This document shows positions 43,263 to 48,490 of a DNA stretch of 64,000 nucleotides, one piece after another. The stretch is from Streptomyces sp. CB02366 (GTDB lineage Bacteria > Actinomycetota > Actinomycetes > Streptomycetales > Streptomycetaceae), in the NCBI RefSeq assembly GCF_001905905.1, contig NZ_LIVT01000001.1, positions 975,952 through 1,039,951 of the forward strand, read 5' to 3'. The notes under the pieces were generated by a model. The model was not told the origin of the DNA. It ran no database searches and worked only from the letters and a program-made list of their open reading frames with translations. The position numbers and the translations under genes are program-made. Each line of letters opens with the position of its first letter. Position 1 is the first letter of the stretch.

Positions 43263-44072
43263 TCAGGGGAGCAGTTCCCGGGGCCGCAGGACGGCGAAGA
43301 CGGCGCCCTGGTCGTCGTGGAGGACGGCCGTCCGGCCGTAGGGGGTGTCGCCGGGCGGCTGGGCGATCCGGCCGCCCAGCCGTACGGCGAGTTCGGCGGC
43401 GGCGTCGCAGTCGGCGACGGCGAAGTGGACGAGGAAGTGGCTGGGCAGCTCGGCGGGGACCGCGTCCGTGATGACGCCGCGTCCGCCGACCGCGGTGTCC
43501 GGGCCCGGTTCGGCGCCCCGGGGGGACCACATCCGGAAGTCGGCCGGCGCCTCCGCCTCGTCGGAGACGTCGTGGCCCGCCTCGTCCAGGTCGGTGCCGC
43601 GGAAGCCGAAGACCTCCTCGTAGAAGGGGTCCACCCGGTCCGGCTGCCGGGTGTGGACCTCGGTCCAGCAGAAGGAGCCGGGTTCGTTCCGCTTCTCGAA
43701 GCCCTCGCGCTCCTCCGGCTGCCAGAGGCCGAAGACCGCGCCACCGGGGTCGGCGGCCTGGGCCGTGACACCGGCGCGCCCCGCCCGTACCGGGTCGGTG
43801 ATGATCCGGCCGCCGTGCTCGCGGATCGCGGCGACGGTGGCCCGGATGTCGTCGGTGGTGAAGTGGACGCCCCAGGCCGTGGGCATCCGGCCGTCCTTCT
43901 TGGCGGCGAGCCCGGCGACCAGGCGGCCGTCGCTCAGCGCGTCCGCGAAGGGCATGCCGTCGTCCGCCCGGAAGGTCCAGCCGAACAGCCCCCCGTAGAA
44001 GCGCTTGCCCGCTTCGAGGTCGGGGAGCTGCACGTCCGCCCAGCACGGCGCGGAATGCGCGAATGCGGCCAT
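43263..44072 (-). CDS. VOC family protein, two glyoxalase-fold domains
   Basis: 269 aa, a tandem of two vicinal-oxygen-chelate domains (about 8-118 and 130-265). Each begins with a (CW)xDVQLPD/(CW)TEVHT-type strand and ends in a GAVFG(L/V)-type strand. Such two-domain proteins often bind hydrophobic ligands or give resistance; here the function is unknown. GGAAGGA precedes the ATG. Confidence 0.85.
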   Translation of the reverse strand: MAAFAHSAPCWADVQLPDLEAGKRFYGGLFGWTFRADDGMPFADALSDGRLVAGLAAKKDGRMPTAWGVHFTTDDIRATVAAIREHGGRIITDPVRAGRAGVTAQAADPGGAVFGLWQPEEREGFEKRNEPGSFCWTEVHTRQPDRVDPFYEEVFGFRGTDLDEAGHDVSDEAEAPADFRMWSPRGAEPGPDTAVGGRGVITDAVPAELPSHFLVHFAVADCDAAAELAVRLGGRIAQPPGDTPYGRTAVLHDDQGAVFAVLRPRELLP

Positions 44073-44195
44073 GGGACCGGATCCTTCCGTAGCGGAGGCG
44101 CGGTGACGCCCGTCACCGTCAACGTAGCGTCACCCCCGGTCACGCGCGCCCCGAACGCACCCATAGGGAACATGTGCCCGGTCGGTGAGGGGCGC

Positions 44196-47549: not shown

Positions 47550-47897
47550 ATGACCGTTCGCCGTGTCGTGCCCAACCTCCGGACGGAGGCGGTCGAGGAG
47601 AACCGGGACTTCTACGGCCTGCTCGGCTTCGAGGAGGTCATGAACCTCGGCTGGATCACCACGCTCGCCCCGCCGTCGAGCCCCCGGGACCAGGTCAGCC
47701 TCATGACCCGCGACCTGACCGGCCCGGTCGTCCCCGACCTGAGCGTCGAGGTGGACGACGTGGACGCGGTGTACGCGGTCGTACGGGAGAGCGGCGCGGA
47801 GATCGTCCACCCGCTCCAGGACGAGGAGTGGGGGGTACGGCGGTTCTTCGTGCGGGATCCGGACGGCCGGGTGGTCAACGTGCTGAGCCACCGCTGA
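47550..47897 (+). CDS. VOC family (glyoxalase/bleomycin-resistance-like) protein
   Basis: 115 aa, a single vicinal-oxygen-chelate domain: FYGLLGFEEVMNLGWITTL in the first half and VRRFFVRDPDGRVVNVLSH at the end, with Glu/His at possible metal positions. GGAG precedes the ATG. It lies 68 bp after the monooxygenase and may be co-transcribed. Confidence 0.85.
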   Translation: MTVRRVVPNLRTEAVEENRDFYGLLGFEEVMNLGWITTLAPPSSPRDQVSLMTRDLTGPVVPDLSVEVDDVDAVYAVVRESGAEIVHPLQDEEWGVRRFFVRDPDGRVVNVLSHR

Positions 47898-47939
47898 AGG
47901 AGCCCCCCGCCCGGATGTGACGCCCGTCACCTCCCGGGA

Positions 47940-47966
47940 TGTCACATCGCGGGGGCCTGTCCCGTC
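47940..47966 (+). promoter_or_regulatory. ECF41-type sigma promoter
   Basis: TGTCACA (47940-47946), exactly 16 bp, then CGTC (47963-47966). This is identical to the published ECF41 promoter consensus. It lies 41 bp upstream of a carboxymuconolactone-decarboxylase/AhpD-type gene, the kind of target ECF41 factors control. No ECF41 gene is in the window. Confidence 0.75.
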
Positions 47967-48007
47967 CTGTGTGTGGAGCCACTGACGACACCACGGAGGA
48001 GCCCGCC

Positions 48008-48490
48008 ATGGACGCCCGAATCAACGCCTTCACCAGCCCCCTCACGGGGAAGCTCGTCAAGCACCTGGTCGCCGCCGGAAAGGTGGTCGAGGGCACGGGA
48101 CTGCCCGCCGCGACCCAGGAGCTGGTGAAGATCCGCGCGAGCCAGATCAACGGCTGCGGCGGTTGCCTGGACATGCACACCAAGGAGGCCGCGGCGGCCG
48201 GGGAGACCCCGCTGCGCCTCAACCTGATCGCCGCCTGGCGCGAGGCCACCGTCTTCACCGACGCCGAACGCGCGGCGCTGGAGCTGACGGAGGAGGGCAC
48301 CCGCATCGCGGACGCGGCGGGCGGGGTGCCGGACGAGGTCTGGGCGAACGCGGCCGAGCACTACGACGAGGAACAACTCCTCGCCCTGGTCTCGCTGATC
48401 GCCCTGATCAACGCCTTCAACCGGCTGAACGTCGTCCTCCGGCAGCCGGCGGGCGGCTACCAGGTGGGTCAGCTCGCGCACCTGCCGTAA
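48008..48490 (+). CDS. Carboxymuconolactone decarboxylase/AhpD-like protein
   Basis: 160 aa. The AhpD redox motif is C50-x2-C53-x3-H57 (NGCGGCLDMH), within an all-helical CMD fold; the preceding E-L-V-K-I-R-A-S segment is also typical. Peroxidase or alkylhydroperoxidase activity is likely. GGAGGAG is a strong ribosome site. Upstream is an exact ECF41 promoter match. Confidence 0.92.
   Translation: MDARINAFTSPLTGKLVKHLVAAGKVVEGTGLPAATQELVKIRASQINGCGGCLDMHTKEAAAAGETPLRLNLIAAWREATVFTDAERAALELTEEGTRIADAAGGVPDEVWANAAEHYDEEQLLALVSLIALINAFNRLNVVLRQPAGGYQVGQLAHLP

Follow-up and report, generated by a model that had tools for sequence, protein, structure and literature searches.

Sequence-based prediction of an ECF41-type promoter with a conserved Crp/GlxR-like upstream box before a stand-alone AhpD-like gene of Streptomyces

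Introduction

How is a promoter with the full ECF41 consensus read when no ECF41 gene lies beside it, and does the sigma factor act there alone? ECF41 sigma factors are widespread and have no obvious anti-sigma factor, and their promoters follow the consensus TGTCACA-n16-CGTC, in which TGTCACA is described as ECF41-specific (Wecke et al. 2012, PMC3426412). According to the same source, the target of an ECF41 factor is as a rule one gene or operon, namely the COE, plus the sigma gene if this is cotranscribed; CMD is one of three target classes, and of 373 ECF41 genes, 224 lie next to a COE and 126 are classed as orphans (PMC3426412, Table 4). The question is raised by a site in Streptomyces sp. 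CB02366, found in a stretch of 64,000 nucleotides that was analysed as a whole (here ‘the window’, G000:C1:975952–1039951 in chromosome coordinates). A first-pass annotation of this DNA had placed an exact ECF41 promoter upstream of an AhpD/CMD gene, with no sigma gene adjoining. The features of the site are collected in Table 1.

Table 1. Features of the promoter region and its gene, in window positions
Feature	Position	Strand	Basis or remark
Crp/GlxR-like box TGTGACGCCCGTCACC	47916–47931	+	9/10 to TGTGA-N6-TCACA; fixed distance in relatives
Core dyad GTGACGCCCGTCAC, type GWGA-N6-TCAC	47917–47930	+	Conserved; same layout in sigJ-oxidoreductase operons
−35 element TGTCACA	47940–47946	+	Read directly in the sequence
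−10 element CGTC, preceded by C (CCGTC)	47963–47966	+	Read directly in the sequence
Predicted transcription start region	47970–47976	+	From the usual ECF −10-to-start distance; conserved GTGTA block there in relatives
Ribosome-binding site GGAGG	47995–47999	+	Read directly in the sequence
CMD/AhpD-like gene, 160 aa, CGGC motif	48008–48490	+	ATG at 48008; profile matches

The promoter and its gene

The two elements at 47940–47966 are separated by 16 bases, so that the exact consensus claimed by the first-pass annotation is read in the sequence and agrees with the published one; the definition used, a −35 TGTCACA, a spacer of 16 ± 1 and a −10 CGTC, is that of PMC3426412, and the one usual but not required feature lacking at the site is an adjacent ECF41 gene. 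The ATG lies 41 bases past the promoter. The product carries a CMD/AhpD domain by profile search (PF02627, E 1.1e-20; TIGR00778, E 6.3e-21), which bears out the assignment to a classical ECF41 target class; the related proteins of known structure belong to the CMD family or are hypothetical (2gmy and others), and the two best named relatives, from S. fimicarius and S. griseus, are 89 and 91% identical. Among the neighbouring genes that were profiled are a Pyr_redox/FMO-like oxidoreductase, a glyoxalase-fold protein, a Cupin_6/AraC regulator and an NmrA-like protein. The site thus resembles the targets of Wecke et al. 2012, where TGTCACA-n16-CGTC likewise precedes a CMD gene encoding a CxxC motif, and differs from them in that the sigma gene is not adjacent and in a predicted leader of ~35 nt versus 22/23 (PMC3426412). 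A GTGTA block ~7–11 bases past the −10, within the predicted start region, is conserved in the upstream regions L023–L132. Two other promoter assignments were rejected by eye on the consensus of the aligned relatives: an HrdB promoter, as no TANNNT lies at a suitable distance, and a tandem second ECF41 promoter starting from the upstream GTCACAT, as no −10 follows at 16–17 bases.

Taken within a single genome the match is weak evidence. In the window, TGTCACA-N14..18-CGTC occurs once against 0.10 expected from 100 dinucleotide shuffles, nine of which held at least one match. Across the whole genome, exact TGTCACA-N15-17-CGTC gives four matches (two with N16) against two for the reversed-pattern control, and the other three are without convincing targets: one (L001) is directed at the 3′ end of a gene on the opposite strand, and a GC3-filtered ORF list gives no convincing gene behind L003 or L004. 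The strength of the promoter evidence therefore comes from conservation among relatives, not from the lone genome match.

Conservation of the promoter among AhpD relatives

The sample comprised 80 named loci, the best of 540 confirmed, and the 30 best genus loci, which include that of the window; removal of eight near-identical rows from these 110 upstream regions left 102 non-redundant rows, including the window's own. Exact TGTCACA/CGTC with a spacer of 15–17 was found in 65/102 of these regions, before orthologous genes, whereas up to 200 letter-permuted motifs gave a mean of 0.01 and a maximum of one, and the reverse strand of the same rows gave none. Counted on the named loci, 46 of the 80 carry the exact motif within 250 bp upstream. 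In a scan of 106 rows (identical rows dropped), 100 score at least 10/12, with a spacer of 16 in 79 and of 17 in 21. The −35 in the 79 aligned N16 rows, own row included, is conserved at T86 G100 T100 C97 A100 C99 A92 per cent, and the −10 is CGTC in 82/95 stand-alone AhpD promoters, a figure that leans high since the scan picks the spacing partly by the CGTC match.

These numbers refute a pure chance match. A chance match or an inert relic, taken together, is a highly improbable account of the site: the modest genome-wide excess speaks for it, as does the drift in a close relative (L024, AhpD 88% identical), which reads TGTCAGA-N16-GGTC, whereas L053, L054 and L059, which are near named relatives, have both elements unchanged, with a spacer of 16 or 17. 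The site is, on this comparison, very probably an ECF41-type promoter.

Which sigma factor reads the site

The SigX4-family profile gives 18 matches in the genome at E 0.001, none over the cut-off, and none of the 18 lies inside the window, in agreement with the annotated lack of an adjoining sigma gene. Three of the 18 are ECF41-like (L005, L006 and L007). The first-pass annotation had named an empty genome search for ECF41 factors as a refuting outcome; the search was not empty, as L005 and L006 both pass the NF007214 (SigJ) cut-off of 271 bits with 304.6 and 289.8. On TIGR02957 (SigX4) they score 309.2 and 262.5, below its cut-off of 323.25. Both genes are intact and of the ECF41/SigJ type, and both are far from the promoter site, L006 on contig C20. 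Both align over nearly their full length with M. tuberculosis SigJ (5xe7; L005, residues 9–291 of 295, E 3.8e-51; L006, residues 15–293 of 317, E 3.3e-45), and the alignment runs through the C-terminal extension, but Pfam SnoaL_2 was not detected in either protein at E 0.001. The ECF41 motifs WLPEP, DGGGK and NPDKL appear with single changes as WLPEP, DSGGK and NPDKL in L005 and as WLPDP, DGGGV and NPEKL in L006. Given the position of these genes, the promoter probably acts in trans.

Linkage in other genomes was examined from both sides. Around the AhpD genes, an ECF41 gene was found by profile search at 7/80 named loci and not found around the other 73 (≤6 kb of flanking DNA on either side, truncated by a contig end at several loci); on mechanical gene calls, ECF41 is narrowly the commonest recurring neighbour family, with six loci versus five each for NmrA and SDR. 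Starting from the sigma factors, L131-type ECF41 genes lie within 30 kb of an AhpD gene in 18/38 cases versus 0.37 expected at random (best AhpD rows listed), and linkage was found for none of the 47 best rows of the L005 type and none of the 30 best rows of the L007 type. This genome has no sigma factor of the L131 type (best match E 2.5e-64). L005 was set aside as a linked sigma, since alongside the 0/47 its co-occurrence with AhpD across genomes is, by eye, only loose. L007 was likewise rejected as the driver of the AhpD promoter, as its gene is broken and its class uses another promoter.

The −10 element bears on the same question. The AhpD promoters linked to L131-type genes (L233–L244) have GGTC in 10/11 and TGTC in 1/11, with CGTC in 0/11, hinting at sigma-subgroup-specific −10 recognition; 4/15 fetched loci of this kind have no recognisable promoter of this type. 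CGTC is also found in none of the six sigma-linked named AhpD loci. The sigma factor reading CCGTC may therefore differ from the AhpD-linked ones. In one genome, G062, an ECF41-like gene and an AhpD gene ~1.4 kb upstream each carry exact TGTCACA-N16-CGTC; this sigma factor is without the WLPEP, DGGG and NPDKL motifs. Its closest protein in the present genome is L006 (40.5%; L005, 38.6%), and a helix TPAA..QLA..ARRRV is, by eye, similar in L006 and the G062 sigma. Moreover, sigma factors ~60% like L006 adjoin AhpD genes in G078 and G090, with inexact promoters (TGTCACAT...GGTC and CTCACAT...CGTC, respectively). These relationships favour L006 and make it a little more probable than L005 as the acting sigma factor. 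At locus L258 (G078:C366), an AhpD gene has two L006-like ECF41 genes beside it, arranged in tandem.

Another ECF group or HrdB as the reader of the site is improbable. Such a reading would suit the observations that no ECF41 gene of this genome has the TGTCACA/CGTC motif near it in the genome-wide exact search, that the subgroup most often linked to AhpD is the one absent here, and that CGTC is missing from the sigma-linked loci. It is opposed by the described specificity of TGTCACA for ECF41 (PMC3426412), the recurrence of ECF41 genes beside AhpD relatives and the exact promoter shared by sigma gene and AhpD in G062.

A conserved upstream dyad

A second promoter element, absent from the first-pass annotation, lies about ten bases upstream of the −35. 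In the sequence logo of the AhpD relatives it appears as the conserved block GWGACGCAsGTCACAT, matched at ≥12/14 positions in 65/97 relatives versus 0.05 in dinucleotide shuffles. Its dyad GWGA-N6-TCAC is present in 68/97 relatives (29/97 have none) and in none for the reversed control. Relative to the −35, 54 of the 68 dyads stand at one place, four at one base more, six at exactly 11 bases more and four elsewhere; hence 60/68 occupy two positions 11 bp apart. The dyad extends to other actinomycete genera, where it is found in 14/19 of the non-Streptomyces rows that pass the promoter score (22 rows in all). The left half-site is GAGA in 50/68 dyads and not the Crp-typical GTGA. The inner bases are CGCCCG in the window and mostly CG..(C/G)G in the AhpD class. 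A divergent promoter was rejected as the cause of the dyad, as the gene upstream in the window runs in the same direction, its end lying at 47897, and few neighbours recur among relatives. Elsewhere in the window, a second exact copy of GTGACGCCCGTCAC (44103–44116) precedes a minus-strand gene for a two-domain glyoxalase-fold protein (43263–44072), ~30 bp from its ATG.

The same layout recurs in a further promoter class. The sigJ-type ECF41 gene L007 (also L183, at G000:C23:834136) is broken in this genome: an internal deletion has removed its C-terminal extension, and the oxidoreductase gene that follows no longer has its Crp-like box. Of the relatives of L007, the best 29 were fetched; all are intact, run to 314–336 codons counted from the core start and show NPDKL or NPEKL as well as DGGG-type motifs. 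Downstream lies an oxidoreductase in 23 and another reading frame in six. All 29 loci have a promoter of the form TGTCA(G/A)-N15-C.GGTTC, and 28/29 have GTGA-N6-(T/C)CAC at −24. Coding does not explain this box, since the position of the sigma stop codon varies from −20 to −122. From its gene neighbourhood, the class is presumably read by ECF41.

The dyad with TGTCAC (≤2 mismatches) occurs in 55/101 genus genomes versus 6/101 for the reversed control; 50 matches were inspected, 30 chosen automatically and 20 by hand, the latter biased against AhpD because they were mostly taken where no listed AhpD gene was near. AhpD stands just behind 31 of them, a Pyr_redox-kind oxidoreductase (by eye) behind five and neither behind 14. 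The blind pattern GTGA-N6-TCAC-N9/10-TGTCA is found in 72/101 Streptomyces genomes versus 3/101 for the reversed control, and in the window's own genome its single match is the promoter site itself. Among 30 automatically chosen loci, it precedes an oxidoreductase in 16, where the locus also holds an ECF41 gene, AhpD in three and other genes in 11, so that 19/30 inspected matches precede redox enzymes of the ECF41 type. Genomes from other genera seldom have the GTGA form (19/284 versus 6/284 in the control), with little enrichment across the phylum. For the shorter dyad GWGACGNNSGTCAC alone, the genome yields 28 rows at 23 distinct sites, versus two for the control. In three genomes (L270, L289 and L294; match near 1501), the form GTGA-N6-TCAC-N9-TGTCA is also found upstream of an ABC-transporter ATPase gene, whose product we take to be ProV-like.

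Which protein may bind the box

The box TGTGACGCCCGTCACC matches TGTGA-N6-TCACA, the GlxR consensus (PMC7999487), at 9/10 positions and is exact to GTG-N6-GNCAC, the S. coelicolor Crp consensus (Gao 2012 as quoted in PMC10033298), and in this resembles actinobacterial Crp/GlxR operators. In S. tsukubaensis, a site variant GAG(N)6GNCGA has been predicted for Crp, and a predicted site tested with the purified protein showed no band shift (PMC10033298). The PF13545 profile has 13 matches in the present genome, four over the cut-off. The best, L263, aligns over its full length with M. tuberculosis CRP (3h3u, E 8.2e-80); as an orthologue of that protein it is the obvious candidate for the box. That the box is a Crp-family operator is a reasonable expectation from its fit to these consensuses.

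A box for another regulator with a similar dyad, such as Rex or a Crp/Fnr-family protein (e.g. L264, which is also among the four PF13545 matches over the cut-off), and possibly with a repressing role, is unlikely, although several features fit it: S. coelicolor Rex operators (TGTGAACNNNTTCACA) share TGTGA...TCACA (PMC5355995), the targets are redox enzymes, GAGA prevails in the left half-site, and the genome has four Crp/Fnr-type matches to choose from. Repression agrees poorly with the location of the box, as a place upstream of the −35 is activator-like. Rex itself was rejected, as its operator has AAC and TT inside the dyad, where the window has CGCCCG and the AhpD class mostly CG..(C/G)G.

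It is somewhat less probable still that ECF41 acts in trans with no second regulator and that the dyad is contacted by the holoenzyme itself, for instance by the SnoaL-like domain. The dyad does accompany the −35 in both the AhpD and the sigJ-oxidoreductase promoters, and GTCACAT recurs in the box and the −35 of the AhpD class. Against this, the sigJ-oxidoreductase box is close to TGTGA-N6-TCACA, a known Crp/GlxR dyad, and the 11-bp shift in spacing suits a separate protein better than a rigid holoenzyme.

Preferring a Crp-family protein at the box, its geometry can be compared with that of known activators. In CRP class I/II activation, the activator site lies upstream of the −35, with spacing in steps of one helical turn. 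The box likewise lies upstream of the −35 and its position steps by 11 bp; in contrast to CRP class I/II, its centre is predicted at ~−50 for a start near 47973, or at ~−61 when 11 bp further, and the sigma factor would be an ECF and not a housekeeping one. Whether the bound protein activates is close to an even question, with the balance tilting slightly towards no.

A proposed two-input promoter

Overall, we lean towards an ECF41-type promoter that works in trans, with a Crp-family protein as co-regulator. RNA polymerase with an ECF41 (SigJ-type) sigma factor encoded elsewhere, L006 being more likely and L005 second, would read TGTCACA/CGTC of the stand-alone CMD/AhpD-like gene, and a Crp-family protein, with L263 as the candidate, would touch the holoenzyme from the same face of the DNA at the box near −50 and help it. 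If bound there and helping in this way, it would let two inputs switch on the AhpD gene, one sensed through the C-terminal domain of the sigma factor itself and the other by Crp.

As a promoter the site is ordinary; it gains interest as the visible representative of a promoter class with two elements. More tentatively, Streptomyces ECF41 targets may be two-input promoters in general, in which a Crp-family protein, fixed and helically phased, is the built-in partner of an ECF41 holoenzyme that lacks an anti-sigma factor, a trait common to unlinked AhpD genes and sigJ-oxidoreductase operons. The Crp-like dyad conserved at a fixed upstream distance departs from the ECF41 targets as described in PMC3426412, the main text of which (figures apart) contains neither ‘palindrom’ nor ‘additional motif’. 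In the titles and abstract openings surveyed, outside which most subscription literature lies, none joins Crp/GlxR sites with ECF41 promoters.

Since a single gene or operon is given as the general ECF41 target (PMC3426412), a target in trans would extend that account, and the many AhpD-family members that have the promoter and no nearby sigma gene reach beyond its picture of one sigma, one neighbour. If the reading is correct, one AhpD family would form a trans regulon of ECF41 paralogues with different −10 preferences (CGTC, GGTC and GGTTC), and two-input promoters would tie the ECF41 signal to cAMP or carbon state. To our knowledge, no signal has been established for ECF41 sigma factors; a conserved Crp-like box in presumed ECF41 targets would offer a concrete and cheap test of one input, Crp/cAMP.
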